DNA of 51,845 nucleotides, taken from the IMG/VR virus record IMGVR_UViG_3300035670_000294, positions 1 to 51,845 of that record; one strand, 5' to 3'. The position numbers and the translations under genes were made by a program. The stretch comes from a virus. Positions 6,110 through 33,812 of this stretch are shown piece after piece (position 1 is the first letter of the stretch; each line of letters starts with the position of its first letter). The notes under the pieces are model-generated. The model had not been told where the DNA came from and ran no database searches. It was given only the letters and a program-made list of their open reading frames with translations.

Positions 6110-6345
6110 ACAAAAACGCCAGAGCCCTTCTTTAGTACATTGTTTAGGTGACTTCATGAGAGTATGAATTTTACTAGGAATATTGAAAATATTTTTTGGA
6201 CACTAGAGTAATTATATATAGAGATTTATAAATCTTAGTGTCCAAATTTTTTTTAGATTTTTTGAAAGAGATTCAATATATTCAATCGGTGCTGGCAGTT
6301 TGGTGCATTCTATGAGTTTTCACTATATTTAATTTAAGTAGTTTT
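6110..6345. repeat. Intergenic element copy A
   Basis: This fills most of the 462-bp gap between 6073 and 6536, where I see no gene. It holds GCCAGAGCC near 6119, an inverted repeat TTGGACACTA...TAGTGTCCAA (6196-6245) around a conserved TATATATAGAGATTTATA loop, then AATCGGTGCTGGCAGTTTGG and TGCATTCTATGAG (6284-6325). Copies B and C are at about 18205-18545 and 33655-33812, the latter inverted. The rest of the gap (6346-6483) is T-rich with nothing recognisable. Confidence 0.75.
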
Positions 6346-6483
6346 TAAGGACAAAAGGGATACTCAGAGAATTTCTGAATTTTTAGAGGGTTTTTTAGGG
6401 TTTTTGGTAGGAAGAAGGGATTTCCTGAAGTGAATTTTTTTTTCTGAGAATTAAATTTTTTTCGTGAGGCTTCCTGAAGATAT

Positions 6484-6513
6484 AAAAAAAGCGGAGTGTT
6501 TAGTTCCGCTTTT
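6484..6513 (-). terminator. Rho-independent terminator of cassette gene 3
   Basis: Minus strand: GCGGA-loop-TCCGC followed by seven T, 23 bases past the stop of the 6536-6733 gene. A near-identical terminator ends cassette gene 4 (17711-17744). Confidence 0.8.
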
Positions 6514-6535
6514 CATGAGGGGGATGGGGTGAGGG

Positions 6536-6733
6536 TTAGCCTTTTTGAATTACTTGAACCGACAATCTATCAATAGTTGTGTTATTCCCTGCGGCTAATT
6601 TTTCTAATTTTTTTTGAGATGGTTTGTATTTTGTCACTGCCAATCTAGTGTAATTTCCATTTGTAGAGTAAACCCCGATTTGGTAAATAAAACCTGAATT
6701 GATAATTGATTGATGTTTTGAATAATTGTTCAT
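6536..6733 (-). CDS. Cassette gene 3: small protein of unknown function
   Basis: 65 aa when started at the ATG at 6733, which has an AAAGGAAAA site. A longer upstream reading to 6817 would run through the promoter and is less likely. The protein is small, basic and beta-prone, with no recognised motif. It has its own promoter, operator-like palindrome and strong terminator. It separates the neck genes at 6892 and 5453. Confidence 0.6.
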   Translation of the reverse strand: MNNYSKHQSIINSGFIYQIGVYSTNGNYTRLAVTKYKPSQKKLEKLAAGNNTTIDRLSVQVIQKG

Positions 6734-6785
6734 AAATTTTCCTTTGGAAAGTTTTTTGAGTTTTCCAGCTCGTTTTAATAAATAT

Positions 6786-6837
6786 ACTATAACCCATTTT
6801 AAAATATTGTCAATCACTTTTTTTGTAAATTACCAAA
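6786..6837 (-). promoter_or_regulatory. Regulon promoter 3 with upstream operator-like palindrome
   Basis: Minus strand: TTGACA (6813-6808), 16-nt spacer, TATAGT (6791-6786). TTTTGGTAATTTACAAAA lies upstream of the -35, in the same arrangement as at the other cassettes. Confidence 0.7.
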
Positions 6838-6891
6838 AAAGTAGAAAAAAATTAGGGTTATTTTTCGGGAAAAATTAGATAAAATTAGAGA

Positions 6892-7299
6892 TTATTTCTT
6901 ATGTCCGCCCAAAACAATATAGAGGAAGTCACTGCCAAACTGGCTAAATAGAGATTTTTCTTTGATTGTGTACTCAGCACCATTGTACTCTAAAGTCCAT
7001 TCATTTGGGTTGATTTCATCATAAAAAATTCCCTTCCTATCCGCGTCTAATTTTGATAGATAGACGGTAATGTCCAAAGTCTGAGTAAAACCGGCTTTCT
7101 CGATGTCTTTCCTTGTCGGATTAAGTGTAATAGGAAAAGCCTTGATAGTATAAGAGGAAGTTGACGTGCGGGAAATTATAGACCCGTATTCATCCCTTGA
7201 AACCGTACCATAATATAGTTTAATCTCATGTCCGTACCCATTGACGATATTTAGTACATCGATTAAAGCCGCAGATTGATTCACTTGATTAATCCACAA
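6892..7299 (-). CDS. Putative head-closure / neck protein
   Basis: 135 aa, probably started at a TTG (7299) that overlaps the end of the preceding gene. Its size, its position after the connector protein and its beta-rich pattern ending in GSDFLYIVLGGHKK fit head-closure proteins, but no diagnostic motif is visible. A TTG start with strong overlap implies coupled translation. Confidence 0.5.
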   Translation of the reverse strand: MWINQVNQSAALIDVLNIVNGYGHEIKLYYGTVSRDEYGSIISRTSTSSYTIKAFPITLNPTRKDIEKAGFTQTLDITVYLSKLDADRKGIFYDEINPNEWTLEYNGAEYTIKEKSLFSQFGSDFLYIVLGGHKK

Positions 7300-8140
7300 T
7301 TCCAGTCATATATTTCTTTAGAAGTGTCCCAGCGGTTCTCATGTACTGATTTCTAATCTCTGAGTATTTACCTGCTGTCCCGTAAGACTTGGAATAACTA
7401 ACCACAGATAAACTTACTCCCCCGCCATCATAACCTGCTTCATTACCTAAGATGTCACTGCAAGACATTAGTATAAGAGCGTTTACAATATCATCGGGAG
7501 GGGTGGCTGCTCCGACAGTATAAGTGATTTTCAAATTCTTATTCCCTCTGGGAAATGAAGACGTTATATACTCTCCTTCCGAAACGTTGGAAGTGAATTT
7601 TAATATTCCCGTCTTACTCTCTATCTCAATTGAAGAAAGGGAAATTGAATAGTAGTAATAATTATTACTTAAGACTTTTATTTCTGTCACTGTCTCGACA
7701 GGTCTTCTATTTAAAATTAATGTACTGTGACCCGTTCCTGAATGAATCTCTGTAATTGTATTCACTCCATCAAAGGGATTATAACCTAAGACATTATTTA
7801 TGTATAGCTTTTGATTGTCTATTATTTCATTCAATTCAACTTCTTTCACTGAATAAAATAACGCACTACCAATAGCTCCCTGCGTCATGCCATTTGAATC
7901 AGTATAGTCTACATAGTTTGTAGATACGTTAATTATTTTGTGATAACCTGAATTAGCCCCAGCACTAACCCTTACATACATCCCTGCGACAATTCCCGAT
8001 ATATTAGCCGTCAAAGTCAATCTAAATGTCGTGCCCGTTGTCACTGCAATTGATTGTACTGAATAAGTTGAAATCAAAGTAGTATAGGTATTAAGCGAAA
8101 AACTATCGAGTTTAGTTAAGATTCTTTCAATGTCAGTCAT
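7289..8140 (-). CDS. Putative head-tail connector (gp6-like) protein
   Basis: 283 aa. The C-terminal part (about 190-283), with PPDDIVNALILMSCSDILG and then YSEIRNQYMRTAGTLLKKYM, is the helical arrangement seen in gp6/gp15-type connector proteins. The N-terminal 100 residues are a beta-rich addition. It lies between the capsid and neck genes. Confidence 0.55.
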   Translation of the reverse strand: MTDIERILTKLDSFSLNTYTTLISTYSVQSIAVTTGTTFRLTLTANISGIVAGMYVRVSAGANSGYHKIINVSTNYVDYTDSNGMTQGAIGSALFYSVKEVELNEIIDNQKLYINNVLGYNPFDGVNTITEIHSGTGHSTLILNRRPVETVTEIKVLSNNYYYYSISLSSIEIESKTGILKFTSNVSEGEYITSSFPRGNKNLKITYTVGAATPPDDIVNALILMSCSDILGNEAGYDGGGVSLSVVSYSKSYGTAGKYSEIRNQYMRTAGTLLKKYMTGIVD

Positions 8141-8167
8141 TTAATACCTATCCTTTTTTATAGAAGA

Positions 8168-8389
8168 TTAAGCCGGAATAAAGCCTTCTTTCTCCAGCAC
8201 AAGAACATCCTTCACGTCATTTGTCTCCAGTCTACCTTCTTTGATTGAAAGCTTTTTTTCATTTCCTTCAGAATCGTAAAAGAAGATTTCGCCAGTGACA
8301 TTTGGGTGAGTAGAATGTTTAAAAGCCCAAGTTTTAACCTTGGACTCTTTTTTTTCATTTGCCTTTTCTGCCATTATGCTACTCTCCAA
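8168..8389 (-). CDS. Small protein after the capsid gene, possibly a head accessory protein
   Basis: 73 aa; a Lys/Glu-rich N-terminus precedes a compact beta segment ending DVLVLEKEGFIPA. It overlaps the capsid stop and is co-translated with it. Small genes here often encode head-tail joining or decoration proteins. Its ending resembles the pre-sheath protein at 2966-3184. Confidence 0.5.
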   Translation of the reverse strand: MESSIMAEKANEKKESKVKTWAFKHSTHPNVTGEIFFYDSEGNEKKLSIKEGRLETNDVKDVLVLEKEGFIPA

Positions 8390-9771
8390 CCCCTTGAAAT
8401 TATAGAAGTCTCTGCAAAACTTGGTACAAGGGCTCCCGTTGTTCTTAGCATGAATTGACGATAAGCGTCAGTTTTTGCAAGGTCCTCATAGGTAACAACC
8501 CCATCAAATTTATTTCCTTTTGAATTTGTGAAAACAAACTCTCCAAGACCTTGATAAGGGTCAAGACAATGTAGAATAACGCTCTCCCCTTTCACAGTTG
8601 AAACAGCAGTTAATGGCTTGTCGGAAGTCATATTGTCGACCTCAGTTCCGGCAGTCACCGCAGTTAGTACAATAGAAGTTACTCTCGCACTCACAGCACC
8701 GCTTGTATAGGTATAAGCAGAAACCATTTTGATAGGTGCCATCCCTGATAAGCCTGTAGTCGCACTATAATAAACTTTATAAGCATTTGCTCCAGTGAAA
8801 TCAGAGAAAGAAAGAGTAATTTTTTGGGTAGCAGTTCCGCCCGATAAAGTAATTGAAACCTCTGCACTTGCTTGCTCTTCACCCTTGTACGAAACAGGAG
8901 CGACTCTGAAATAATAAGTTCCATCGGATAAAGACCCGCCAGTAGCGGCACCAGCGGCAGTCACTGTGCCCATTGTACCGGAAGTTCTACCACCTAAAAA
9001 GGTCGTATCGTAAATAGGAATTCCACGATAGGTAGTCACTCTTTTTCCTGCAGCTATTTCAATTTGTTCAAGTTTGCCAGCTATATCAAAAACCCCTCTT
9101 CCATAGCCATCGGAAAGAGTAGTAATTTTTGATTTCATTCTTGGAGTACAATAGAAAGCAAATTCCAAGTTTGACCCGCCGCGTTCCATAGCCCTATCAA
9201 TCATGGAATCTAAGAAAGATAAAGAAGTTGGAACAGTAGGGGCACCACTTGAGAAACCTTCATTCAATCTTGAGTCGCCAGTAATAAGACGGTCTAAGCC
9301 ACTGAATTCATAAGTGTTAGCGTCTGCATTACCCCACAAAGTAAAGTAATTCATGTCAAGAGCGTGCTTGTATGCAACAGCCTCAATTTCCTGAGCATAG
9401 GCGTCAATGTACTCTTCCGAAGCGTCGGATTCAAAGTCAGTCACAGCACCTTTTCTTCGGATTTCTTTAAGAGTTACATTCTCTCTAGAATATGCACTTG
9501 AGGAAGTAGGAGTAACTCCGCTCTCACCCATAGCTCCGTATTCAGAAGGAAGCGTATTCAATCGGTTGAATTCATGCTTCTTACCCTTAATCCCTTTGGT
9601 TCTTAATAGACCAAATTGAGGGGCGAGTTCAATCACTGTATTAGTGATAATTCTTTCCAGACTCTGAGGTATTAGAGCCTCCCCGACATTTGTATCAGTT
9701 GTAAGAGCCTTTCTTAAGAGCTGGTTCATTGGACTAGTATTGAGTTTATTTTTGTTGTACTGATTAGCCAT
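8374..9771 (-). CDS. Major capsid protein with inserted Ig/FN3-like domain
   Basis: 465 aa. It lies after the protease and scaffold genes, and the N-terminal region through GVFDIAGKLEQIEIAAGKR has the layout of HK97-fold major capsid proteins. Residues about 265-385 form a separate Gly/Thr/Ala-rich beta domain (SDGTYYFRVAPVSYKGEEQ, then ANAYKVYYSA) that reads as an FN3- or Ig-like insertion. The capsid chain then resumes with HCLDPYQGLGEFVF. Such insertions are typically displayed on the capsid surface. Assembly needs the protease at 10422-11432. Confidence 0.8.
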   Translation of the reverse strand: MANQYNKNKLNTSPMNQLLRKALTTDTNVGEALIPQSLERIITNTVIELAPQFGLLRTKGIKGKKHEFNRLNTLPSEYGAMGESGVTPTSSSAYSRENVTLKEIRRKGAVTDFESDASEEYIDAYAQEIEAVAYKHALDMNYFTLWGNADANTYEFSGLDRLITGDSRLNEGFSSGAPTVPTSLSFLDSMIDRAMERGGSNLEFAFYCTPRMKSKITTLSDGYGRGVFDIAGKLEQIEIAAGKRVTTYRGIPIYDTTFLGGRTSGTMGTVTAAGAATGGSLSDGTYYFRVAPVSYKGEEQASAEVSITLSGGTATQKITLSFSDFTGANAYKVYYSATTGLSGMAPIKMVSAYTYTSGAVSARVTSIVLTAVTAGTEVDNMTSDKPLTAVSTVKGESVILHCLDPYQGLGEFVFTNSKGNKFDGVVTYEDLAKTDAYRQFMLRTTGALVPSFAETSIISRGWRVA

Positions 9772-11432: not shown

Positions 11433-11469
11433 ATTGATTTTGATTATCCATAGAATAGGAAATTGTCAA
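11430..11469 (-). promoter_or_regulatory. Promoter directly before the protease start codon
   Basis: TTGACA (11469-11464) and GATAAT (11448-11443) are separated by 15 nt. Only ten bases separate the -10 from the ATG, so the predicted 5' leader is about three bases. It restarts head-gene transcription downstream of the nuclease insertion. Confidence 0.45.
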
Positions 11470-11595
11470 TAATTATTTTAGGGTAGTACAAGAAAAAGGG
11501 GAAATGACGTGTCTGGAATTTTGGTAGCGACATCCATGACGTTACCAAATTGGTAGGAAGAGGGGTGGGGGGTTATTCCCCCTTGAAATTAAATA

Positions 11596-12234
11596 TTAGT
11601 TTATTTTAACTCTATGCCATTCTAATAATCTGTAATCAATATTAGATTCCCCTTTATGCCATAGTTCACAATGTCTATTATATTCATCTTCTATATAATC
11701 AATTATTTCTTTATTTAATTCAAAATATTCATTGTTTATATGATAGTCAGAAAATTTTTTATGAAGTGCTCTTTCATATTTTCTATTTCCTTCAAAGCTT
11801 GCCATAATTCTAATATTTGGAGTATGAGTTTGATATTGTAGCAACCTATGTAATAAATCATTTGTATGCCCTATTTTAATAGCACCATCTATTAATAAAA
11901 AATATACTACATTTACAATAGGAATATATACATTCCATCTTGATTCAAATACTATCTCCCCCTCTATTTTATCTTTTGAATATAATTCTCTTAAAATTTT
12001 TGAATCAACTCCAAGTAATGAATAGTAATTGATAATACCTATTGTATTATCTTTTGAATCTTTTTTTTCTATATAAAATATATCATCTATAAAATTAAGA
12101 TTTTCTATTTGATGTTTTATAAAATTATTAACAGATTCTAACCCGTATAGTTTTATCAATATCTTTAAGTCATCTTCATAATATTTGTTTTCAGCTAAAA
12201 CTTTGTTTTCTTTGTTATCAAATAATTCAAACAT
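11596..12234 (-). CDS. GIY-YIG-type nuclease of the T5orf172 / MUG113 class
   Basis: 212 aa. The C-terminal domain (about 108-190), with VVYFLLIDGAIKIGHTND, a following LLHRLLQYQ and the ALHKKFSDYHINNEYFEL stretch, matches the T5orf172/MUG113 branch of GIY-YIG proteins. The N-terminal 100 residues are unassigned. The gene is visibly more AT-rich than its neighbours and interrupts the head operon, as free-standing homing nucleases often do. The ATG follows GATTAGTACAAGGAGAT, one copy of a repeated start-region motif. Confidence 0.7.
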   Translation of the reverse strand: MFELFDNKENKVLAENKYYEDDLKILIKLYGLESVNNFIKHQIENLNFIDDIFYIEKKDSKDNTIGIINYYSLLGVDSKILRELYSKDKIEGEIVFESRWNVYIPIVNVVYFLLIDGAIKIGHTNDLLHRLLQYQTHTPNIRIMASFEGNRKYERALHKKFSDYHINNEYFELNKEIIDYIEDEYNRHCELWHKGESNIDYRLLEWHRVKIN

Positions 12235-12245
12235 AAAATAATCTC

Positions 12246-12265
12246 CTTGTACTAATCATCGGTCA
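12246..12265 (-). promoter_or_regulatory. GACCGAT-ATTAGTACA start-region motif, copy 1
   Basis: On the minus strand GACCGATGATTAGTACAAGG sits just upstream of the SD and ATG of the GIY-YIG gene. Related copies precede genes at 12651, 23998, 25732 and 45944. The 225-bp gap 12235-12459 otherwise shows only a partial further copy near 12404-12420. Confidence 0.5.
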
Positions 12266-12459
12266 GAGCCACAGGAAACTTTAATCACCTTCTTGACGTC
12301 AGGAAAGTGATAAGTGGGAAAATAAGGATATTGAAGATAAGGAAGAAAGACAAACAGTACAAGGAAAAGAAGATTCGCTCCCCTCCTATGGGATAGAAAG
12401 CCTTGTACTAATTGTCTACAAGATTATTTTACAATTGGTAGAATTTCGTCAAGGGAATT

Positions 12460-12651
12460 TTACCAATCGGGTTCAATAGGCAATATAATTTCTCTTTTAA
12501 TTATATCAGTATTGCAAACTACCAAACAAGTATTTTCTTCTATATTTCTTAATTTCTCAGAACTATAATACTCTTCATCATTCCAATCTTTAGGGTTGTT
12601 ATAATCAGTGCCATAAAGAGACTTAATTGCATAAATTATTTTTTCTTCCAT
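12460..12651 (-). CDS. Small acidic protein of unknown function
   Basis: 63 aa with Trp, Tyr, Asp and Glu enrichment and no recognised family. Its ATG is part of the motif CCGATAATTAGTACATGG. It lies alone between the GIY-YIG gene and the plus-strand island and may be co-transcribed with the former. Confidence 0.5.
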   Translation of the reverse strand: MEEKIIYAIKSLYGTDYNNPKDWNDEEYYSSEKLRNIEENTCLVVCNTDIIKREIILPIEPDW

Positions 12652-12802
12652 GTACTAATTATCGGGAAAAAGAAACAAACCCCCTTGATAATTTTCAAAG
12701 GGGTATCACAATAAGAAGGAAAATTTAAAGAGAATCAACCAATCAAAAAGAAAAGAAAATTCAATTATGATTGCATGTGCATTAGCTTAGACTTACTTAG
12801 GG

Positions 12803-12848
12803 ATAGACTCCCCCTTGAATGGGTAACAAGGGAGAGTCTATATTTTTC
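12803..12848 (+). terminator. Strong plus-strand terminator hairpin
   Basis: ATAGACTC plus CCCTTG pairs with CAAGGG and GAGTCTAT, followed by ATTTTT. No plus-strand gene precedes it, so it may end a short non-coding transcript from 12660-12800 or insulate the minus-strand genes. The gap 12652-13154 also holds small inverted repeats at about 12937-12955 (TTAAGAG/CTCTTAA) and 13012-13045. Confidence 0.5.
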
Positions 12849-13103
12849 AAATTATCAAAATCTTAGAGGAAACAAATATGATCCAATTCACATTCAGTAA
12901 GGAATCTAATGTCAAAACGAGTCAACGAAACACGGATTAAGAGGCTCACTCTTAACGTATTTCGAAGGCTCTTCTTTATTTGTATCCTAATATTAGTACA
13001 TGGAATAGTCAATAAAAATATTTACCTACTCTGTAAATATTTATTGATTTAATTCTATTTGTGTACTAATTAGAATGCAAGGATATTTTTAGATTTGAAA
13101 AGT

Positions 13104-13129
13104 GGGTGAGAGTGTCACCCCTTTTTTTT
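13104..13129 (+). terminator. Attenuator-like hairpin in front of the 13155 gene
   Basis: GGGTGA-loop-TCACCC followed by a run of eight T. It lies between a possible promoter (TTGATT near 13045 and TAATTA near 13068) and the SD of the plus-strand gene. In that position it would end most transcripts before the coding region. Confidence 0.55.
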
Positions 13130-13154
13130 ATCTACCCATAAAGGAATTATCATC

Positions 13155-14471
13155 ATGGCATCAAAAGATATTAACCTAATTAATAGAGGCTCTTCCAGTG
13201 TAGTTGACGCATTCGGACGTTTCATGGTTTCCGAACCTACTACCCTTTTCGATATTACTCACGTTTACGATAAACAACCAATATTAGAACACGAATTAAC
13301 CGCCACGGGAGCTTCTTCAGTACATCTCCCAAATGAATCGTCGGTCAAGATGATTGTCTCAGACACTATCAATAGCAGAATAATAAGACAATCAAAACAG
13401 TATTGCGTATATCAGCCCGGTAAAGGTCTCAGAGTGATAATGACTTTTGTATTGCATGACAAAATGAATCCTAACCTTGTTTGTAGGGCAGGCTTGTTTG
13501 ACAATCACTCAGACAAGACGGTTGACGTGGGGGGAGATGGAGTCTTCCTTGAATACTCAAATGGGAATTATTATTTTGTTTTACGGAGTTATGCTTCCGG
13601 TACACAGGTTGAAACTAAGATTGAAAGAAGCAATTGGAATGGGAATTCTTTAAACTCTCTGGACTTTACAAAAGGTAATATCCTTGTCTTTGACTATGAG
13701 TGGTTAGGTGTTGGGGCAGTACGTTGTGGGTTTGTAGTCGGACCCTCTATTTATAATAATGGGTACATTGGTGGTCAATTGATATGGGCTCATGTATTCG
13801 ACAATGCAAACCATAAAGATTCAGTCTATATGACATCGGCTAATCTGCCCGTAAGATATGAGATTTCAAATAACGTTGGTGGGGCAGGTTCCGGGGGATT
13901 CATGAAACAGATTTGTTATACTGTAATTTCAGACGGGGGGTACACACCCAGAGGGAAAAGCCTAACGTCAAGGACATCTACCCTAATAAGCCTTACAACT
14001 ACTAACGAAACATTCTATATGGCTTTACGGTCTAAGACTGCTTATAACAGACTGCCACTTATAATCCGTTCCATTGACGCGTTATGCACTACAGGAAGCA
14101 ATCTCATAATTAGAGTCTATATCGGGGAGAGTACAAATGTAGCAGCCGCAAGCGTAACCTTTTCAAGCGTAAATGACGCGTCTGGAGTTGAGTACATTTA
14201 TCATAACTCAGTAGGTGTTGTCACGGGCGCCGTGGTAGGTGTAGGGGGAGTCACTGTCGATAATAACTTTACAGACAAGACAAAATTCGTCTTACTCTCA
14301 GAAAAGTACATGCCTAACTCTACTTCAATCTTTCAGAGTCCCTTAGACAATACTATTCCTGTGGGTTGTGAAATCGATGGAAGCCAAGACTATGTATTTA
14401 TAACTTTGCAAAGGTTGAGCAACCAAACCGAATCAGTGTTATTAAATGCGGGTTGGCAGGAATGGTACTAG
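13155..14471 (+). CDS. Conserved virion-type protein of unknown function, on the opposite strand
   Basis: 438 aa with an AAGGAATT SD. The order of motifs (FGRFMVSEPTTLFD near the N-terminus, IRQSKQYCVYQPGKG, DGVFLEYSNGNYYFVLRS, FDYEWLGVGAVRCGF, then SVYMTSANLPVRYEI and MKQICYTVISDGG) is one I know from a family found in environmental phages and large DNA viruses, where it is treated as a structural protein without defined role. It is beta-rich with no signal peptide. It is the only plus-strand gene in the head module and has its own regulatory region. Confidence 0.65.
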   Translation: MASKDINLINRGSSSVVDAFGRFMVSEPTTLFDITHVYDKQPILEHELTATGASSVHLPNESSVKMIVSDTINSRIIRQSKQYCVYQPGKGLRVIMTFVLHDKMNPNLVCRAGLFDNHSDKTVDVGGDGVFLEYSNGNYYFVLRSYASGTQVETKIERSNWNGNSLNSLDFTKGNILVFDYEWLGVGAVRCGFVVGPSIYNNGYIGGQLIWAHVFDNANHKDSVYMTSANLPVRYEISNNVGGAGSGGFMKQICYTVISDGGYTPRGKSLTSRTSTLISLTTTNETFYMALRSKTAYNRLPLIIRSIDALCTTGSNLIIRVYIGESTNVAAASVTFSSVNDASGVEYIYHNSVGVVTGAVVGVGGVTVDNNFTDKTKFVLLSEKYMPNSTSIFQSPLDNTIPVGCEIDGSQDYVFITLQRLSNQTESVLLNAGWQEWY

Positions 14472-14478
14472 GAATTAA

Positions 14479-17285: not shown

Positions 17286-17442
17286 TGTACTCTCCCTCCT
17301 CAGATTCAAGAAAGGAATAAATCCTTTTGAGATTTGCCATAGCCAAAGAATCATAAGGAAGATTAGGTTTAATAGCTTCCTTGACTGCCGACAATAGCAT
17401 ATTATATTTTTCTTCAATTGTTAGATTAGTTAAATCTGTCAT
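17272..17442 (-). CDS. 56-aa helical protein
   Basis: The ATG overlaps the preceding stop (ATGA); the end overlaps the next gene by 14 bp. The product is Leu/Glu-rich and helical, of unknown function. Coupled overlaps on both sides support it as a real gene. Confidence 0.5.
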   Translation of the reverse strand: MTDLTNLTIEEKYNMLLSAVKEAIKPNLPYDSLAMANLKRIYSFLESEEGEYNGTR

Positions 17443-17609
17443 TGTTTTTCTCCTGCTTGCAGTATAGTTGCAATCCCATTTGAATTAATTTTAAATGATT
17501 TCTTGCATAGTTTGCAAATTTGGAATACGAACACAAATTTCAAACCACGATATTTCTCATAATATAATTTAGTTTGTTGTAAACAGGATGGGCATAATAT
17601 ATTTTTCAT
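17439..17609 (-). CDS. 56-aa zinc-ribbon-like protein
   Basis: Contains CPSC near residue 6 and CKLC near residue 32, a two-knuckle zinc-ribbon arrangement. It has a GGAG SD. A TTTTGTAAATTACAAAA palindrome lies about 30 bases upstream near 17640-17656, similar to the cassette operators. Its role is unknown; such proteins can bind nucleic acids or RNA polymerase. Confidence 0.55.
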   Translation of the reverse strand: MKNILCPSCLQQTKLYYEKYRGLKFVFVFQICKLCKKSFKINSNGIATILQAGEKQ

Positions 17610-17710
17610 TGTTTTTCTCCTTCTGTGATTATCGTCAATTTTTGTAATTTACAAAAGGGAAATATTCAGTTGTAAAGAATTACTTGACTACTCAGTAGGA
17701 AGAAGAAGGC

Positions 17711-17744
17711 ATAAAAAAAGCGGAGTGTTTTAAGCTCCGCTTTT
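17711..17744 (-). terminator. Rho-independent terminator of cassette gene 4
   Basis: Minus strand: GCGGAG-loop-CTCCGC followed by seven T, just after the stop of the 17767-18039 gene. It is almost identical to the terminator at 6484-6513. Confidence 0.8.
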
Positions 17745-17766
17745 CCTGTGGGGGATGGGTTTGATG

Positions 17767-18039
17767 TTAGGTTGCTACAAGCATCAAACTATTAAGTTTC
17801 TTTGCACAATTACCACCCACAGGAAAAAGCCCTTGCGAATCCTCTACATCTATATTTGTAGGAACTAAAAAACCATCGGTGGTTAAATGAACCATCTTGG
17901 TTTTTGTAGCATCATAATTTATAATAGGATTTCCACAGAGGATACATCTATCCTCTGAACCTTTTATTTTTTTCTTTTCTGAATAATTAATCCCTAAATG
18001 CTCTCGCACTTGTTCTAAATCTATTTTAAAAAATATCAT
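17767..18039 (-). CDS. Cassette gene 4: putative zinc-binding protein
   Basis: 90 aa. RCILCGNPI (about residues 31-39) and GNCAKKL near the C-terminus give three or four metal-ligand candidates, as in small zinc-finger proteins. It has its own operator-promoter and terminator and follows intergenic element B. Unrelated in sequence to the other cassette genes. Confidence 0.6.
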   Translation of the reverse strand: MIFFKIDLEQVREHLGINYSEKKKIKGSEDRCILCGNPIINYDATKTKMVHLTTDGFLVPTNIDVEDSQGLFPVGGNCAKKLNSLMLVAT

Positions 18040-18071
18040 TTCTATTAACCTTCCTCTTTAAATTTAAGAAT

Positions 18072-18124
18072 ACTATACCACAGGGAAAAATAATATCAAT
18101 CACTTTTTTGGTAGATTGCCAAAA
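18072..18124 (-). promoter_or_regulatory. Regulon promoter 4 with upstream operator-like palindrome
   Basis: Minus strand: TTGATA (18099-18094), 16-nt spacer, TATAGT (18077-18072). TTTTGGCAATCTACCAAAA lies just upstream of the -35, matching the other cassettes in spacing and orientation. Confidence 0.7.
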
Positions 18125-18204
18125 TATTTCAGTTTATTTTTACTCAGCACCTATTCTTTCAACCTTTCCACGTGACACAAATTTTTCATATTCTACCCTG
18201 CCGG

Positions 18205-18545
18205 AAAGCCTCTAAAACAGTGCCAGAGCCTATTTTTTACCGATTAAGCTAATTTTTTATTAAGTAGTTTTTCATAGAATGCTTTGAATATAGGGATTCT
18301 ATCTATTATATTCAATCTACTTAGTAAAAACTAAAATATTTATTGGACACCAAACGATCTATATATAGAGATTTATATACTCTAGTGTCCAAATTTTTTT
18401 TAGGTTTTTAGTGTAGTACTATCAATAGAATGAATCGGCGGCGGCAGTTTGACGCATTCTATGAAATTTTACTACTGAAAAATTTAGTGGTTTTTGGGAA
18501 ATTTTTTGGACACTAAGAGGAAGATTCTTAGGGTGATTCAAACTT
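18205..18545. repeat. Intergenic element copy B, with extra inverted arms
   Basis: Occupies the gap between the terminase gene and cassette gene 4. It holds GCCAGAGCC, the inverted repeat TTGGACAC...GTGTCCAA (18343-18392) around the same TATATATAGAGATTTATA core, and AATCGG-GGCAGTTTGACGCATTCTATGA (18433-18473). Two additions are unique to this copy: an inverted CATAGAATGC arm upstream (near 18271), and an extra TTTTTTGGACACTAAGAG half-site near 18503. No coding ORF is visible. Confidence 0.75.
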
Positions 18546-18570
18546 AGCCAGTGACAAATAATTGTCACAT

Positions 18571-22449: not shown

Positions 22450-22622
22450 TAGAAGTCACCTCTCAATAGTAGCATAGTGAAATATGCACTAACGCACATC
22501 AAGACAGTTGACGCTATAATATCAACTGATTGAATCTCAGTAAACACCGAAAACAAATAGCCAAGCAAACTCGCGAAGGCTACCAAATAAATGAAGACGA
22601 CTGAATCTTTATAAAATTTCAT
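22449..22622 (-). CDS. 57-aa two-helix membrane protein (holin candidate)
   Basis: Two hydrophobic stretches (about residues 8-28 and 34-53), short charged ends, and a GGAGAGTACAATG start. The stop overlaps the next ATG (TAATG). Size and topology fit small class II-type holins, but no experimental analogue is recognised and other small membrane proteins look alike. Confidence 0.5.
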   Translation of the reverse strand: MKFYKDSVVFIYLVAFASLLGYLFSVFTEIQSVDIIASTVLMCVSAYFTMLLLRGDF

Positions 22623-22746
22623 TGTACTCTCCTTTATCTTCTTCTTCCTTTAAAAGTCTCAATACGGTCTCGCTTGATATACTATCGTATATACTGCAAA
22701 GTTGTTTAAGTTGCTCTAATCCTTTTAATCCTGTTATATATTCCAT
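22609..22746 (-). CDS. 45-aa helical protein
   Basis: Starts in GGAGAGTACAATGG and overlaps the next gene by 14 bp. Leu/Glu/Lys-rich, probably two short helices. Function unknown; context is a chain of coupled small genes. Confidence 0.45.
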   Translation of the reverse strand: MEYITGLKGLEQLKQLCSIYDSISSETVLRLLKEEEDKGEYNEIL

Positions 22747-22757
22747 TGTACTCTCCT

Positions 22758-22922
22758 TTACCTAACCAAATCTTCATCTTCCAAGTATGATTCAAAAATT
22801 GAAATCATCTTACCTTTCAACCTAACTTTCATTTCATATTCATTCAAGAACCTTTCTTCTTTCAATGAGTATTCATCTACAATACTATTTACAGCCTCTG
22901 TAATTTCGTCTTTGTAATCCAC
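22758..22922 (-). CDS. 54-aa acidic helical protein
   Basis: Starts at GTG in GGAGAGTAAAATAACGTG, the recurring GTG start context. The product is rich in Glu, Asp and Tyr. No family recognised. Confidence 0.45.
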   Translation of the reverse strand: MDYKDEITEAVNSIVDEYSLKEERFLNEYEMKVRLKGKMISIFESYLEDEDLVR

Positions 22923-22937
22923 GTTATTTTACTCTCC

Positions 22938-24736: not shown

Positions 24737-25402
24737 TTAAACTTTTTTAATATACGTGAGAGTATTCTGCACCTTGAAAACCTTACTCAATAGCAATTCC
24801 CACTTGTACCAAACCCCTTTGCCTGAGCTACTTTTAGAATAACCCCGATTTAAGTCACCAAAGGAATCATGGACTTGTAAATCGATATTCCCATCGGCAC
24901 GCCTCCCATATCCTATCACTGAGATTATATGTCCTTCTTTAGTAATGTCAGTGGAAGTGATAACGTCAAAGCCAGATAGGTCAAGACGATTGACAATCTC
25001 TTTGATGTGAGTCTCAGGTGTCGCACATTGTATTTTCTCAAATCTAAGGGGGATTGAATTTTGAGAAAAGAAGATATTCCAATGGTCTCTGTGGACTTGG
25101 GACGAAAATCTTTTCTTGTCTTTGAATATAAAATAATAAGCTTCCTCTGTCAATGCCTTTAGGTATTCATTATTGTAGACCTTACCAATATCAATCAATC
25201 GACCGCAGAAAGAACTAATCATACATTGGTCGCTTGTCACGTTATCTCTCTGGTCAAGGAAGGTCTCATTCCCTTCAATGTCCTTGATGGTCAACGTATC
25301 ATCTTTTTTTAGTACATCGGCATATACCATATCTACCAAATCGTTGAAAGACTTTTTCATTGTACTAATTCTATTTAGGATTTCTTCTTTGCTTTCTTGC
25401 AT
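24737..25402 (-). CDS. C39-like cysteine peptidase, candidate endolysin
   Basis: 221 aa. A papain-like triad can be placed as Cys in TSDQCMISSFCGRLID, His in EGHIISVIGYG, and Asp in VHDSFGDLNRG, with SSGKGVWYKWELL after it, the layout of C39-like peptidases. No signal peptide. The ATG at 25402 has a GGAGCAG site and is preferred to the later ATG at 25360. No other peptidoglycan hydrolase is evident in the genome, so a cell-wall role is inferred from absence. Confidence 0.5.
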   Translation of the reverse strand: MQESKEEILNRISTMKKSFNDLVDMVYADVLKKDDTLTIKDIEGNETFLDQRDNVTSDQCMISSFCGRLIDIGKVYNNEYLKALTEEAYYFIFKDKKRFSSQVHRDHWNIFFSQNSIPLRFEKIQCATPETHIKEIVNRLDLSGFDVITSTDITKEGHIISVIGYGRRADGNIDLQVHDSFGDLNRGYSKSSSGKGVWYKWELLLSKVFKVQNTLTYIKKV

Positions 25403-25578
25403 TTAACTGCTCCTTGACTATCAATGTACTTTCTTTCTTTCATAAGGTCAATCAATTTTATAGCAGAATGATAGCCAATCCCTAACCTTCTTTGTATAAC
25501 TGTCGGTAGAGCTTGACCGTCAAGTCTGGCCAGTTTGCAGGCTTCTTCATAATAATATTCTATCTCTGATTTAGTCAC
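25375..25578 (-). CDS. Stand-alone FtsK-gamma-like winged helix protein
   Basis: 67 aa. PTVIQRRLGIGYHSAIKLID and the following LMKERKYIDSQGAV match the winged-helix gamma domain of FtsK/SpoIIIE, which reads KOPS/SRS sequences; here the motor domain is missing. The lysine-rich tail could add DNA affinity. GTG start in GGAGAGAAATAACGTG. Confidence 0.6.
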   Translation of the reverse strand: MTKSEIEYYYEEACKLARLDGQALPTVIQRRLGIGYHSAIKLIDLMKERKYIDSQGAVKCKKAKKKS

Positions 25579-25756: not shown

Positions 25757-28024
25757 TTATATAATTACAAAAGTTTCCAGTAAGGTTGTATTTAATTTAT
25801 ATTTTCTTATATCCCCCGACTTTGAAACTTGCTCAATCTTTATCCCCCAGTTAATCAGTACATCGGATAACGCGTCTACATTACTCACAATATATTTAGC
25901 TTGTATCTTTTTCAAAAACTTAGATTGTTTCTCAATGATTAACTTGCCAAGCTTCTTAGATTTAGGGAAGCCATTGACATTATAATTAGTCCCGTGAGAT
26001 TTATTCCAACGCGTTATTTCCTTCGTCTTAACCAAATCAAATTCATATTTATAAACTGTCATTATAGTAGCGTTATTTCCACCGGCAATTTCTTTGGCAT
26101 AGTCCAGAGCCAAGGAAGACAAGCCTCCGGTTTTACTGAGTATCTCTTTATAAGTACTTGTCTTTAAGAACTTCTCATTCCATCTTAATCCAAAGTCTTT
26201 TCCTGTGGCTAATGACAGATTCTGAATTAAAGAGTCTGTAAGGTCAAGCTTTGTAAATTCCCGGTCTTTAAACTCTTTGAGTACATTCTTGACTAGAACT
26301 TTCTCCAATAGCATTGAAGAAGGGTTTAGACTAACGCCCTTCAATTCGTTATCAATTTTTTCATTTACATATAATTCATTATCGGGAGTAGTGAAAGCCA
26401 ATATACGATTGGCTATTTTATTTATATGATTGCTATTCACTGTGAAATCGTACACTGCATTAATCTTGTCTTGTCTATCTAGAGAAGTATAATCAATATT
26501 AAGCTTCTCGGACAATTCAAACTTAGCCATGAGACTTTCTTCCTCTTTGGTTAAGTCTCTTTCACTTCTTTCTATTTTTAAATTCTCATAGACTTCCTTG
26601 TCTATAAGTTCAATCTTCTTTAGTCTTTCTTTTTTTTCTTCTTTGGTCTCAATCACCCCGGCAGGGGGTTTGAATCTGTCGGTTTGTTTATCAACGTGAT
26701 TAACAAAGTACCATTGAAGACCGTCTTCCTGTTTAAAAGAAGAATAGTAACTTATAATATAATTAGCAACACCCGTCTTCCGATTGATTTCATATAACGC
26801 TCTATTCTCAGCTATGTAGGTTTTAAAAGGTTTGTAATCCTCGCGGGTTTCCCATATCCCTTCTTTACTGATTATAGCAGGGAATAGCATATTGAGAGCT
26901 CTTTCCCGTCTATTAGTTTCTTCTAATATACTCTCAGTAGTTTTTTTTATAGATAGTATTTCATCTTCTCTTTGAGAATAGATATGTAAAGGAATTGAAT
27001 AGTCTCTCTCCCTGTGGATTGCTTGAATATATAATCTATAATCTTTAATAGCCTTATTCATAGCTATTAGTATGACGTGAGTAAAATGACGTGTTGATAT
27101 ATTCAACCCGACAAACCCGGTTGGGCTTATTGCCAAGATTCGAGGTTTATTATCTTGGACTAATTTGTCGATTGTTTGAGCGGAGAGTAAAGACTCCCTT
27201 GTATCTCTACAAAGGTTTATCTTTTCAGAGTCATTGAGATAGTCAAGCATAGATAAAATAACGTTGGATTCTTTAACCACGTCGCATAAGACAAGGACAT
27301 TCTCTGAGGGATTCTTTAAGAGGCTCTTAATCTTTTCTTGTACTGTCCCCAAAGAATTATAATTGTATATCTCTCTCCGTGGTGGCATATAATTACGATT
27401 TGATATTACAGATATTTCGTCTTTTCTTCCTACTAAATCACAGATTAAATTATAATCACTTTCATTGAGTAGGGCATCAAAGACCTCTACTTTATGATGT
27501 GTAAAGATTCTTTTCAATGCCTGAAGCATTCTATCCCTGCGGGAATTATTGATTGAAGAAAAGCATTGGTTCAAGATTGTACTAAATTCATCAAAGATAA
27601 ATATTGTATCTCGATGTAATTGGAAGTCTATGTGAATCATTGATTCAAGTGTCGTATTAATGCAGCCTGAATAATTTCCAAGTTGTTTTAATTTATTTAG
27701 ATATAGGTGAGACTTCATGGGAATATTTTCTTTCTGGAATCTATTCGACACGTCATTTATTAAAGACCGTGTTGGGTTCACTATTATAATATTCTGCTTT
27801 GTTTCTTTATAGTGATTGATTGCTTTTTGAGTTTTCCCTGAACCAAAGAATTCAACGTTGATTCCTACCCTTGTTTCCGACAGACTATACTGCCCCGTGT
27901 ACTTTTCATCAGTACAATAATAATTTCTTTTTGGGGTGTTTGTTTCAAGGAATGAAGACTCAAAAGGATTCTCTTTATTTTGGTAGGTTTCAAAATTTAT
28001 ATTATTTATGATTTCTTGGTACAT
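25757..28024 (-). CDS. Large helicase-like protein, probable replication initiator
   Basis: 755 aa, the largest early gene. Residues about 55-70 contain VEFFGSGKTQKAI (Walker A), followed by IIIVNPTRSLIND (motif Ia-like), DTIFIFDEFSTIL (Walker B) and, near residues 300-340, ISPTGFVGLNISTRHF and QAIHRERD (motifs V and VI), a superfamily 2 layout. The C-terminal 350 residues are unassigned. No DNA polymerase or primase is seen, so this is the likely core of phage replication, with the host replisome recruited. A viral origin-binding helicase relationship is possible. Confidence 0.6.
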   Translation of the reverse strand: MYQEIINNINFETYQNKENPFESSFLETNTPKRNYYCTDEKYTGQYSLSETRVGINVEFFGSGKTQKAINHYKETKQNIIIVNPTRSLINDVSNRFQKENIPMKSHLYLNKLKQLGNYSGCINTTLESMIHIDFQLHRDTIFIFDEFSTILNQCFSSINNSRRDRMLQALKRIFTHHKVEVFDALLNESDYNLICDLVGRKDEISVISNRNYMPPRREIYNYNSLGTVQEKIKSLLKNPSENVLVLCDVVKESNVILSMLDYLNDSEKINLCRDTRESLLSAQTIDKLVQDNKPRILAISPTGFVGLNISTRHFTHVILIAMNKAIKDYRLYIQAIHRERDYSIPLHIYSQREDEILSIKKTTESILEETNRRERALNMLFPAIISKEGIWETREDYKPFKTYIAENRALYEINRKTGVANYIISYYSSFKQEDGLQWYFVNHVDKQTDRFKPPAGVIETKEEKKERLKKIELIDKEVYENLKIERSERDLTKEEESLMAKFELSEKLNIDYTSLDRQDKINAVYDFTVNSNHINKIANRILAFTTPDNELYVNEKIDNELKGVSLNPSSMLLEKVLVKNVLKEFKDREFTKLDLTDSLIQNLSLATGKDFGLRWNEKFLKTSTYKEILSKTGGLSSLALDYAKEIAGGNNATIMTVYKYEFDLVKTKEITRWNKSHGTNYNVNGFPKSKKLGKLIIEKQSKFLKKIQAKYIVSNVDALSDVLINWGIKIEQVSKSGDIRKYKLNTTLLETFVII

Positions 28025-28799: not shown

Positions 28800-28816
28800 A
28801 TTTACTTGACGATTAT

Positions 28817-30126: not shown

Positions 30127-30127
30127 G

Positions 30128-30733: not shown

Positions 30734-30762
30734 TTGTTAATCCTCTTTAAATTTATTTTAAT

Positions 30763-30804
30763 TCAACCCCCTAATTTTTTTAAAGTGGTCGGGGTGTCCA
30801 CTGC
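30763..30804 (-). promoter_or_regulatory. 42-bp leader element, copy 1
   Basis: Identical over 42 bp to 33128-33169. On the minus strand it holds AGTGGACACCCCGACCACT, able to fold as a hairpin, followed by a TTTAAAAAAATT stretch and GGGGG that can pair with the CCCC in the hairpin loop. It lies about 30-70 bases before the ATG at 30733. Confidence 0.65.
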
Positions 30805-30828
30805 CGAAACCCGGCACGTTATTTTCTT

Positions 30829-31056
30829 TTAGAGCCTACCCTCCTTGACAAGCTCTAAAAGGGGTTTGCAATATTCGTCCTTACCTTTCCCTTGCTCACA
30901 ATCATCAAGGGTAGGGTACACAAAGTCTTTTTTGACGACAGTCTCAAACCCTCCTTTCCCTGCTGTGACTTTTAAGCGAAGGTAATTTCTAATCTCTGAA
31001 TCTGAATGCAGGGTCAATGACAACCCTGCTAATAATACTATTGATAATTTTCTCAC
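30829..31056 (-). CDS. Small exported protein
   Basis: 75 aa with an N-terminal signal peptide-like MRKLSIVLLAGLSLTLHS, then a mature part of about 57 residues with two Cys. GTG start in GAAATAACGTG. A periplasmic role, for example inhibitor or lysis accessory, is possible but unproven. Confidence 0.5.
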   Translation of the reverse strand: MRKLSIVLLAGLSLTLHSDSEIRNYLRLKVTAGKGGFETVVKKDFVYPTLDDCEQGKGKDEYCKPLLELVKEGRL

Positions 31057-31072
31057 GTTATTTCTCGCCTAT

Positions 31073-31366
31073 TTATATAATATACCCTTCAAAAGAAGGG
31101 ACAATAAAATTTTCTACTTTATCCCATCCCTCAGGGGGTGCTTCAATTGTAGTTTCTGAGTAAATATATTTATGATACATTGAGGTTAAACTCGCATTTA
31201 TCTCAGTTATGTAAATCGTCTCAATGTCGATATTGTACTCTTTGGAATATTCCAGAGCTATCTCATGAGCCTTGGAAATATTAATAGTGTGAATCATCCC
31301 ACCGAGATAGCCAATTAACCAATATATTCTTTTTGTTTTTTGGCAATATATTTTTTGTATTGTCAT
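31073..31366 (-). CDS. 97-aa protein of unknown function
   Basis: Starts in GGGAGTACAATG. Alpha/beta character with several aromatic residues. Part of the 33.1-30.8 kb chain of small early genes. Not recognised. Confidence 0.45.
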   Translation of the reverse strand: MTIQKIYCQKTKRIYWLIGYLGGMIHTINISKAHEIALEYSKEYNIDIETIYITEINASLTSMYHKYIYSETTIEAPPEGWDKVENFIVPSFEGYII

Positions 31367-31378
31367 TGTACTCCCTTC

Positions 31379-31897
31379 TTATTTTATTTGTAGATTTAAA
31401 TTTTGGACTAATGAAGCCCCGGGAATTTCAACCCCTTCTTTAATCATCTTTTTTATTGATACCTTGTCTGCTTCCCGTGTCGTCTTTACCCGTACGTACT
31501 CTGATGGAAGCTGGTCAACGTCAGGGGCGTCTACAGACTCCGACATCATCCAATAGAGTTTAGTTTCTCCATCGGTAATGGCAGTCTTTGAAGACAAATG
31601 ACGTGGCACGTTATTTTCGAGAATGCCCTCAAGCCAAGCGTTATAATTCTCAAGGGATTCTATTTTAGATTTCTGGGTTTCTATTCTCTCTTTAATGCCC
31701 TTGATTAAATGCTTGTTATTCTTAATCTTGTTAGCAATTGCTAATAGACTTTCTTCTTTGGTAAGCTCAAGACTTTCAATCCGTGCGAGGATGTCCTCTG
31801 GGTAGTTTAACTCCCCTGTCTCTTCATTGACCGACTCATACTGCTCTAGCAGTGATTCTATTTGGGAGTTTAACTCCCACACTTTAATTTGTTTCAT
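31379..31897 (-). CDS. Gp157-like protein
   Basis: 172 aa. Coiled-coil N-terminal half (SIEKL-type heptads, IKERIETQKSKIESLENY), then a beta segment and ADKVSIKKMIKEGVEIPGAS plus LVQNLNLQIK, the C-terminal signature of the siphovirus Gp157 family (PF05565). Members occur in early or replication regions, often near SSB and recombination genes, as here; biochemical role unclear. Confidence 0.7.
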   Translation of the reverse strand: MKQIKVWELNSQIESLLEQYESVNEETGELNYPEDILARIESLELTKEESLLAIANKIKNNKHLIKGIKERIETQKSKIESLENYNAWLEGILENNVPRHLSSKTAITDGETKLYWMMSESVDAPDVDQLPSEYVRVKTTREADKVSIKKMIKEGVEIPGASLVQNLNLQIK

Positions 31898-31908
31898 GAT
31901 TTATCTCC

Positions 31909-32223
31909 TTATAATAAGTAATTCTGAGTTATAAAATTTTTGGGGTTGCAATCCCCAGATAAAAACAGATTTATCTTGTACCCCCAAATTGGGTGGTTAG
32001 CCCAATACGGCATGTCTTCCCTAAATAGATTGTGGACTATAATGTAGACTAAACCGATATTCAATAAACTCGCAAATGAATCAAACAAGGGAATCATATC
32101 ATCATGATTCCAGCCCATGTCTTTCAGCTCCGTGATTGTAAACATAACCGAATTATTTCTGTCGTACAGTTCATAAAATCGATTTTCCCATATTGTCATT
32201 TCCGACATTCTGCTTACCAACAT
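31909..32223 (-). CDS. 104-aa protein of unknown function
   Basis: GAGGAGATAAAG SD before the ATG. Mixed polar/hydrophobic with IGLVYIIVHNLF in the middle. A stem-loop CCCGCAG/CTGCGGG (32263-32284) lies in its leader. Not recognised. Confidence 0.45.
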   Translation of the reverse strand: MLVSRMSEMTIWENRFYELYDRNNSVMFTITELKDMGWNHDDMIPLFDSFASLLNIGLVYIIVHNLFREDMPYWANHPIWGYKINLFLSGDCNPKNFITQNYLL

Positions 32224-32289
32224 CTTTATCTCCTCTTAATTGTACCCTTCCTATAATTTCCCGCAGGGAAGGGTGGCTGCGGGTTCGAT

Positions 32290-32595
32290 TTACAAATTGT
32301 AATACTTGAGGTCAAGAATGTCCTCATGATTGATTACAATGCAATTTTCAAACTCTTCGATTGAGAGCCCTCTTTCTGAAGCATACACTGTAAAACCTTC
32401 GGAAAGAATTTGAAGTGATTGAATTTTATTGAGTAGGTTTCTCAATCCGTACTTTACTAATATGTCCTTCTCTATCAATATCGGTTTATCTACAATAGTA
32501 TTAACTACAAATTCTTGGAATCCCTCAAAAATTAACTCCTCTATATTTATCTCAGGAAGGGGCAAAACTTCATATTGTACTATTTGAGTTTTCAT
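32290..32595 (-). CDS. 101-aa protein, paralogue of 32774-33094
   Basis: Shares MKTQI, an NIEELIF/NIEKVII segment, DKPILIE/DKPVLVD and ENCIVI/TNCIVV with the protein encoded 480 bp upstream. The two clearly arose by duplication. GGAGAG SD. Function unknown. Confidence 0.55.
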   Translation of the reverse strand: MKTQIVQYEVLPLPEINIEELIFEGFQEFVVNTIVDKPILIEKDILVKYGLRNLLNKIQSLQILSEGFTVYASERGLSIEEFENCIVINHEDILDLKYYNL

Positions 32596-32777
32596 TTTGA
32601 CTCTCCTAAGTTTTTAATAATTTGTTTTTTTAAACGAGTAATTTCTTCTTCCCGTCTTTCTAACTCGACTAATATTTTAGTCAAAGTCATTGTTTTAAAT
32701 ATACTACAATTATGGTCTGAGTTATATTCGACCAAAACTTTCAAACTATCTATTGTAAATTCTTTCAAATCTTTCAT
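32592..32777 (-). CDS. 61-aa coiled-coil protein
   Basis: Helical throughout with a charged heptad-like C-terminal half (LVELERREEEITRLKKQ). Coupled by overlaps to the two flanking paralogues. Confidence 0.45.
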   Translation of the reverse strand: MKDLKEFTIDSLKVLVEYNSDHNCSIFKTMTLTKILVELERREEEITRLKKQIIKNLGESK

Positions 32778-33094
32778 TTTGATTCTCCGTCAGTGATATA
32801 AAATTCTCTTTTGAGGAAGAAGCTTGAAACTACAATACAGTTTGTGCACTCTTCGACATAAAGCCCTTGACCCTCGAAATAAATTGACTCTTTAGTCAAG
32901 TCAACCAAGGAAGCTTGAATTTCTTTTATAAATTCTACAATTTCATCAAGCTTTAATTTTAGTCGAGTATCAACTAAAACCGGTTTATCAAGACCTTTAA
33001 TTTCATGCTTGTTAAATGCAAGCTTGATTATTACCTTCTCGATGTTCAATGTGAGTAAGGGATAATCGGGGTGACGTTCTATTTGTGTTTTCAT
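32774..33094 (-). CDS. 106-aa protein, paralogue of 32290-32595
   Basis: The first gene after the second 42-bp leader (33128-33169). Alpha/beta, with the same conserved blocks as its downstream paralogue. Function unknown. Confidence 0.55.
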   Translation of the reverse strand: MKTQIERHPDYPLLTLNIEKVIIKLAFNKHEIKGLDKPVLVDTRLKLKLDEIVEFIKEIQASLVDLTKESIYFEGQGLYVEECTNCIVVSSFFLKREFYITDGESK

Positions 33095-33127
33095 CTCTTT
33101 TTACCTTCTTTAAATTTTCTTTGTTTG

Positions 33128-33169
33128 TCAACCCCCTAATTTTTTTAAAGTGGTCGGGGTGTCCACTGC
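33128..33169 (-). promoter_or_regulatory. 42-bp leader element, copy 2
   Basis: A perfect copy of 30763-30804, lying about 35-75 bases before the ATG at 33094. It is preceded on the minus strand by a separate short hairpin (GCAGGA-loop-TCCTGC), as copy 1 is by GCCG-loop-CGGC. Flanking sequences otherwise differ, so the identity is not due to a recent large duplication. Confidence 0.65.
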
Positions 33170-33186
33170 AGGAAGACTCCTGCGGG

Positions 33187-33438
33187 TTAGGCTTCCATTC
33201 CATGACAATTGAAGTATTTATTATATATTTGAGCTGAAGACATACCTTCAACCCATTCAAGAGGAATATTTTTTATTATACAGTCAGTGTCATAGTTTGA
33301 ATTCATTCTCTCTAGTGTAAGATATTTTCTGCCTTCGATTCTTCTATATTTCCAAACTCCGGAATTTCCACCACAGTTGAAAATTTCTACTTTGATTTTT
33401 CTTACTGATTTTTTAGTTTTTGTTTTTAAAGTTTTCAT
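33187..33438 (-). CDS. Cassette gene 5: small basic protein
   Basis: 83 aa, Lys/Arg/Asn-rich, four Cys, with a strongly basic N-terminus (LKTKTKKSVRKIK). Own promoter and operator-like palindrome; a hairpin lies just downstream. Fifth of the independent cassettes and flanked upstream by element C. Family not recognised. Confidence 0.6.
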   Translation of the reverse strand: MKTLKTKTKKSVRKIKVEIFNCGGNSGVWKYRRIEGRKYLTLERMNSNYDTDCIIKNIPLEWVEGMSSAQIYNKYFNCHGMEA

Positions 33439-33506
33439 TGTCTTTACCTTCTTAAAAGTTTTGTTCTATATTTATTATCGAGTCTTTGACTCTTTAATAT
33501 AAAGTA

Positions 33507-33560
33507 ATAATAATTCCTTTTTATTTATTGTCAACAACTTTTTTTGGTAGATTGCCAAAA
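33507..33560 (-). promoter_or_regulatory. Regulon promoter 5 with upstream operator-like palindrome
   Basis: Minus strand: TTGACA (33534-33529), 16-nt spacer, TATTAT (33512-33507). TTTTGGCAATCTACCAAAA lies just upstream of the -35, the same half-sites as at promoter 4. Confidence 0.7.
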
Positions 33561-33654
33561 AATAATAAAAAAAGTAGGGTTTTTGGGGGGTGAAAATCTC
33601 TAAAAATTACTCTCAGATTCTGAAAAATTAGAGCAAGGGAATTTCAGCAAAATA

Positions 33655-33812
33655 TCACTATTTTTTTATGTAGTAAAAACTCATAGAATGCCTTGAAATG
33701 CCAGCACCGATTAGGTATACGACAGAGAATGCTTGTACTATAAAATATTTTTTGGACACTAGAGTTTATAAATCTCTATATATAGATAGTCTAGTGTCCA
33801 AATTTTTGTAGA
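33655..33812. repeat. Intergenic element copy C (inverted)
   Basis: Inverted relative to copies A and B. It contains TTGGACACTAGA...TCTAGTGTCCAA (33752-33802) around the TATATATAGAGATTTATA core, and on the minus strand AATCGGTGCTGGCA with GGCATTCTATGAG (33671-33712). The 401-bp gap 33439-33839 holds this element and promoter 5; no gene is visible. Confidence 0.75.

Follow-up and report, generated by a model that had tools for sequence, protein, structure and literature searches.

What is the sequence element that recurs at three intergenic positions of the metagenomic virus contig IMGVR_UViG_3300035670_000294, and what might it be used for? The contig, analysed over its full 51,845 bases and referred to here as the window, had received an initial annotation in which the element was a conserved stem-loop with a second block, serving perhaps as an insertion site for morons, a structured RNA, a bidirectional terminator, or a replication or packaging site. 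The element is real, well constrained and present in three copies, and is best read from its anatomy, on which all statements of function here are based, as a site for protein assembly. Among its possible uses, replication initiation or replication control is tentatively the most likely.

Anatomy and conservation of the element

The three copies, A, B and C, of this roughly 200-bp element are recognisable by self-BLAST (E values of 2e-26, 1e-17 and 1e-15). At the heart of each is a dyad of the form TTGGACACYA-30-TAGTGTCCAA, 50 bp from end to end in every copy, the arms of which enclose an 18-mer core, TATATATAGAGATTTATA, that is identical in all three. A 17-mer of the core has 3 matches against 0.06 expected, a count reached in 0 of 100 shuffles. 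The common core and the shared inverted repeat described earlier are both confirmed. Copy A lies on the + strand at 6110-6392, of which 6186-6392 is homologous to the other copies (three-copy alignment, and self-BLAST with B at E 2e-26); its dyad occupies 6196-6245 (arm 6196-6205, core 6213-6230, arm 6236-6245). Copy B, the most complete (18249-18534, + strand), is delimited by the alignment and by an inverted repeat at 18249-18282/18454-18487, and its dyad is at 18343-18392 (arm 18343-18352 with one substitution, core 18360-18377, arm 18383-18392). On the − strand is copy C (33598-33811, from self-BLAST and the alignment), with its dyad at 33752-33801 (arms 33752-33761 and 33792-33801, core 33767-33784).

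Outside one arm is the second block, block X, composed of AATCGGYGSYGGCA (box X1) followed by GCATTCTATGA (box X2). It is found at 6284-6315 in copy A (+ strand; AATCGGTGCTGGCA at 6284-6297, GCATTCTATGA at 6305-6315), at 18433-18464 in copy B (+ strand; AATCGGCGGCGGCA at 18433-18446, GCATTCTATGA at 18454-18464) and at 33681-33712 in copy C (− strand; AATCGGTGCTGGCA at 33699-33712, GCATTCTATGA at 33681-33691). Every copy thus has the GCATTCTATGA box: A on the right, C on the inverted side and B on both sides. The first box is exact in A and C, with AATCGGCGGCGGCA as the variant in B. Also borne out are two features attributed to copy B alone, an inverted CATAGAATGC arm, forming a left outer box at 18272-18282 (− strand), and an extra TTGGACACTA half-site at 18506-18515 (+ strand). 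As the outer GCATTCTATGA boxes of copy B share one centre with the inner arms (arm-to-box distances of 61 and 62 bp), the element is a quasi-palindrome and not merely a stem-loop plus a block. Both of those parts exist, but the original description fell short of the symmetry in B, of the inverted core in C and of the extent of homology, which runs past block X to about 6392, 18534 and 33598, some 150 bp beyond the arm. The gene at 33840-34235 has, in its 3′ end, a stretch weakly resembling block X, which was judged to be due to chance.

The stretch enclosed by the arms of copy C runs in the opposite orientation to its adjoining flanks, and 24 nucleotides, AAAATATTTTTTGGACACTAGAGT, match copy A exactly on the + strand; the letters of the core are kept whichever orientation it has. 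This arrangement fits inversion of a hairpin loop, a common mutational outcome.

Conservation was counted on a 226-column alignment of the three copies. Invariant columns make up 18/18 of the core, 9/10 and 10/10 of the arms, 11/14 of X1 and 11/12 of X2, and outside the boxes 11/40 of the arm-to-X spacer and 27/85 of the tail, with a chance expectation of 0.08-0.09. The spacing of the boxes is constant across copies, X1 lying 39-41 bp and X2 60-62 bp outside the arm of the 50-bp dyad. As far as an alignment can tell, such a pattern is the mark of multiple binding boxes with fixed spacing.

The sole change in an arm, T to C at 18351 in copy B, disrupts a stem pair, which argues that the sequence of the arms rather than the stem is conserved. 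No compensatory changes were found in stem pairs, in a comparison of three copies from one genome that gives a covariation test low power. A structured RNA or bidirectional terminator would account for the low folding energy of the dyad (z of −2.0 to −4.6 for short stretches) and for a T-run after the right arm on the + strand, but the low energy follows from the arms being inverted repeats, and a search with Rfam covariance models gave no match to the element. Viewed as a terminator, the dyad has a 10-bp stem, a 30-nucleotide AT loop and a T-run that is confined to the + strand, against the direction of the genes; an intrinsic-terminator scan, which looks for a GC-rich stem, a short loop and a T-run in the gene direction, did not pick it up, and the neighbouring cassettes already end in ordinary terminators. 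Both suggestions of the initial annotation are consequently disfavoured, and this class of explanation is very improbable. The arm change that breaks the stem, the lack of covariation and the conserved boxes set between random spacers favour a protein-bound DNA site over an RNA, a terminator or an attachment (att) site, and the element is probably a cis-acting DNA site bound by protein.

Genomic setting of the three copies

On sequence grounds, the window phage, of metagenomic origin, is related to Leptospira phages LE3 and LE4 and to Leptospira plasmid prophages: its portal is 40% identical to the LE3/LE4 portals, its terminase 36-38% identical to those of the plasmid prophages, and the gene order of its virion module matches that of LE3. 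A search with a portal alignment yielded 17 relatives. No close ones were found, those fetched being distant (portal identity about 29-40%), and neither single-protein scans of viral contigs with terminase, portal and helicase nor a genome scan with a terminase alignment recovered any relatives. By self-BLAST the contig ends, 1-1245 and 50601-51845, share 93.5% identity over 1245 bases, and the genome is therefore probably circular or permuted, about 50.6 kb long, with strain variation between the ends; a tandem duplication of the tail-tube region is the alternative.

Comparison with these relatives places copies A and B within insertions. The first (6074-6891, about 0.8 kb) contains element A, a cassette gene at 6536-6817 and its terminator, and the genes flanking it are directly or nearly adjacent in LE3, L. 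interrogans p5, L. mayottensis p2 and three further relatives (G006, G008 and G009). The second (17418-18570, about 1.2 kb), with element B, a cassette gene at 17767-18039 and a terminator, separates the terminase and portal genes, which in most relatives have little or nothing between them; different inserts occur at this junction in G003 and G006. Judged by these gene orders, both insertions can be taken as lineage-specific. The cassettes end in GC-stem terminators (6487-6513 and about 17714-17743). By self-BLAST, the stretches following the two cassette genes, 6476-6528 and 17705-17759, are near-identical (87% over 55 bases).

The cassette genes in both insertions have a promoter with an operator box, an operator-like palindrome TTTTGGYARNYTRCCAAAA that occurs 14 times within 3 mismatches against 0.74 expected, often beside TTGACA promoters (sites include 4818, 5254, 6820, 18106, 21341 and 33542). 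Such a box adjoins each copy, at 6820-6838 in the cassette beside A, at 18106-18124 beside B and at 33542-33560 beside C, as expected from the earlier proposal that the copies lie next to regulon cassettes; most of the operator boxes, however, have no element nearby. The TTTTGGYARNYTRCCAAAA box and the GTGATTGACAA promoter are site families separate from the element. Three other insertions (4249-5452, 11433-14478 and 45865-50298) also contain no element. The link between element and cassette is thus real but partial. Nor do the copies occupy the only large gene-free gaps, as had been claimed, since gaps as large at 12652-13154 (503 bp) and 22450-22937 (488 bp), taken from a simple open reading frame model, contain no copy.

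That A and B sit inside insertions absent from relatives supports in part the earlier idea of insertion sites for morons, whereby the copies would be insertion or exchange sites (att-like, attC-like or resembling miniature inverted-repeat transposable elements, MITEs) and the entry route of the cassettes. The occurrence of both orientations, the quasi-palindromic form, the core inverted between the arms of copy C, and the similar terminators and operator promoters of the A and B cassettes are in keeping with it. Set against this are the insertions that have no element, the differing order of element and cassette in A and B, and the strong box-wise constraint that persists after 25-30% divergence, unexpected of passive insertion scars; the inversion in copy C is explicable as a common hairpin-loop mutation. 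No target-site duplication, flanking direct repeat, sharp end, transposase or other recombinase was found, and family scans of the window, which covered part of its small open reading frames, revealed no integrase. An integron attC site was rejected because the arms, TTTGGAC/GTCCAAA, match 6/7 of the GTTRRRY/RYYYAAC core boxes with the cleavage-site G/C absent, and form a continuous stem where attC has an unpaired central spacer; a MITE was rejected because homology extends beyond the arms and fades without a common end. Mobility or recombination is, in sum, quite unlikely.

A possible but rather doubtful alternative is transcription control, in which a phage regulator on the dyad would act as a silencer, enhancer or insulator of the leftward promoter to its left, separating cassettes from late genes. 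A leftward TTGACA-class promoter is present downstream of all copies (TTGACA at 6107-6080, TTGATA at 18099-18072 and TTGACA at 33534-33507), an operator-box cassette adjoins each, and the box conservation resembles that of protein sites. The distances from arm to promoter differ, though (89, 244 and 218 bp), copy C is oppositely oriented while the neighbouring genes are all leftward, and most promoters and boxes of the class are without an element. A sigma-54 promoter was considered for block X and rejected, the GG and GC being 11 bp apart in all three copies compared with 12 in TGGCAC-N5-TTGC; no match to the consensus −24/−12 site occurs in block X or anywhere else in the window.

Beyond this genome, exact-arm scans of viral contigs (IMG/VR) and 84,980 species-representative genomes returned nothing but matches that lack the core and are either unrelated or within coding sequence, and a core-only scan of viral contigs hit 7 contigs, 0 of them with flanking arms. 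BLASTN of the copies against phage and plasmid records gave matches at chance level only, and pattern, BLAST and profile searches of 15 relatives did not find the element. With no homolog containing the core in these collections, outside which very near records may lie, the element is lineage-specific as far as the data go. The initial annotation had staked its proposal on covariation, on conservation elsewhere and on a link to cassette insertion: neither of the first two was found, and the link holds for A and B only. None of the dispersed repeats of the relatives LE3/LE4 and isolate prophage G009, the repeat of the latter containing a promoter, resembles the element. An intergenic box, AGTTTACAAAAAGTAAACC, is dispersed upstream of genes in LE3/LE4 (L012 at 7692, 33870 and 34332; L013 at 33274 and 46704) and is likely to be an operator family; no mention of intergenic repeats turned up when the LE3/LE4 paper was searched by term. 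Like the element, these boxes are palindromic, intergenic and present in multiple copies, but they are short and directly upstream of genes, as is the TTTTGGYARNYTRCCAAAA family of the window, whereas the element is a multi-box assembly of 200 bp.

A putative replication site

Of the uses open to a protein-bound site, replication, one half of the replication-or-packaging proposal made earlier, leads, if tentatively. A phage-encoded protein would assemble on the element as a cis-acting DNA site, with the inverted TTGGACACTA boxes read by one protein; the 40 bp between their centres, nearly four helical turns, would place these boxes on almost one face of the helix. Strand opening or an architectural role may fall to the invariant AT-rich core between them, and a second factor may bind at the outer boxes, GCATTCTATGA and AATCGGYGSYGGCA. 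The genome of about 50.6 kb would then contain three origin-like sites, resembling in layout those viral origins that have an AT-rich spacer between initiator boxes.

Two observations slightly favour replication. The dyad is laid out as an initiator site would be, around DNA that melts easily: the core regions rank among the least stable 0.1-0.6% of the 30-bp windows of the genome. In unrelated phages, moreover, clusters of TTGGACAC boxes are found next to primase-helicase genes of the D5/VapE type. Among viral contigs with inverted TTGGACAC pairs, dense TGTCCA clusters (8 or more hexamers) occur at 6/25 non-redundant loci, compared with 0/30 for a composition-matched control octamer, ACTTGGAC, and 5/6 of these loci are close to a D5/VapE-type gene, where an origin would be expected. 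From this the TTGGACAC octamer would seem to be a recurrent initiator-type box of several phages. Clusters of 8-11 TGTCCA/TGGACA boxes were seen near D5/VapE-type genes in unrelated phages at loci L031, L032, L040, L049, L060, L062, L065 and L066, and are probably origins sharing one iteron.

Several observations weigh against a replication function. The window yielded no protein of the D5 or Herpes_ori_bp type, and because a D5/VapE-type protein is lacking the TTGGACAC clusters do not establish an initiator box in this phage. No DnaA box is near any copy, and the copies are not adjacent to the helicase gene. Low stability is common across the intergenic DNA of this genome, and the GC skew, confounded by one-way transcription, does not turn clearly at any copy. 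A phage of this genome size would not usually have three origins, and the position of A and B in insertions beside operator-controlled cassettes also suits transcription control.

The only replication-like protein recognised in the window is an orphan superfamily 2 (SF2), DEAD-type helicase of 755 amino acids (25757-28024, − strand; Pfam DEAD at E 6.5e-5, below the gathering score). No homologs of it were found in searches that included viral contigs, and an AlphaFold2 model made with no alignment was unusable (mean predicted local distance difference test score, pLDDT, of 35.5). Close by is a free-standing FtsK gamma DNA-binding (winged-helix) domain protein of 67 amino acids (25375-25578, − strand; PF09397 at E 2.4e-10, above the cut-off), a candidate box-binding protein. 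By default, these two are the first candidates for initiator and partner of the element. An improbable extension would be a tailed spirochaete phage with three dispersed herpes-origin-like sites, inverted boxes around an invariant AT core in each, in which the helicase and the FtsK-gamma-type protein replace a recognisable replisome-loading set and the sites spread with morons.

The iteron-type origins beside D5/VapE genes (L049, L060 and L066) have, like the element, inverted pairs of the TTGGACAC octamer on either side of AT-rich DNA. Each, however, is one site of 8-11 boxes directly downstream of the initiator gene, whereas the window has three sites with two boxes each (three in B). Herpes simplex oriS and oriL, three origins per genome, consist of inverted initiator boxes around an AT-rich spacer; layout and site number are similar, with no sequence relation to the element.

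Scattered inverted repeats serve phage N15, the genome of which can be a plasmid, as a dispersed centromere. The copies might likewise be parS-like sites segregating the phage as a circular plasmid prophage, since they are scattered dyads and the Leptospira relatives that are plasmid prophages have ParA/ParB annotated. They differ from the N15 repeats in sequence and architecture, the scanned window proteins included none recognisable as ParA/ParB-like, and other relatives, LE3 and LE4, are lytic (PMC6078989); a partition role is unlikely.

Were the copies replication or partition sites, a handle acting in cis would become available for a Leptospira-type phage; most Leptospira vectors have been constructed from the replication regions of phages (PMC6078989). 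The element is compact, with defined boxes and no known relative, so that its binding protein should be findable by a simple pull-down. A regulatory element would be one more dispersed site family in a small phage genome, ordinary in kind.

Other repeats in the window

A TGTACTAATTATCGGTC-type motif is repeated at 12242, 12645, 17129, 23992, 25726, 45916 and other positions, with several copies near gene starts, and is possibly a further regulatory site family. At gene starts a CACGTTATTTCTCTCC stretch recurs (25555, 30103, 31033, 49040, 49273, 49451 and 49748), which is likely to be a shared leader or ribosome-binding segment. Among small genes with no assigned function, self-BLAST revealed a direct repeat of about 60 bases (30744-30804 and 33107-33169, 90% identical), and a tRNA-Glu (TTC) gene is located on the + strand at 48267-48338.

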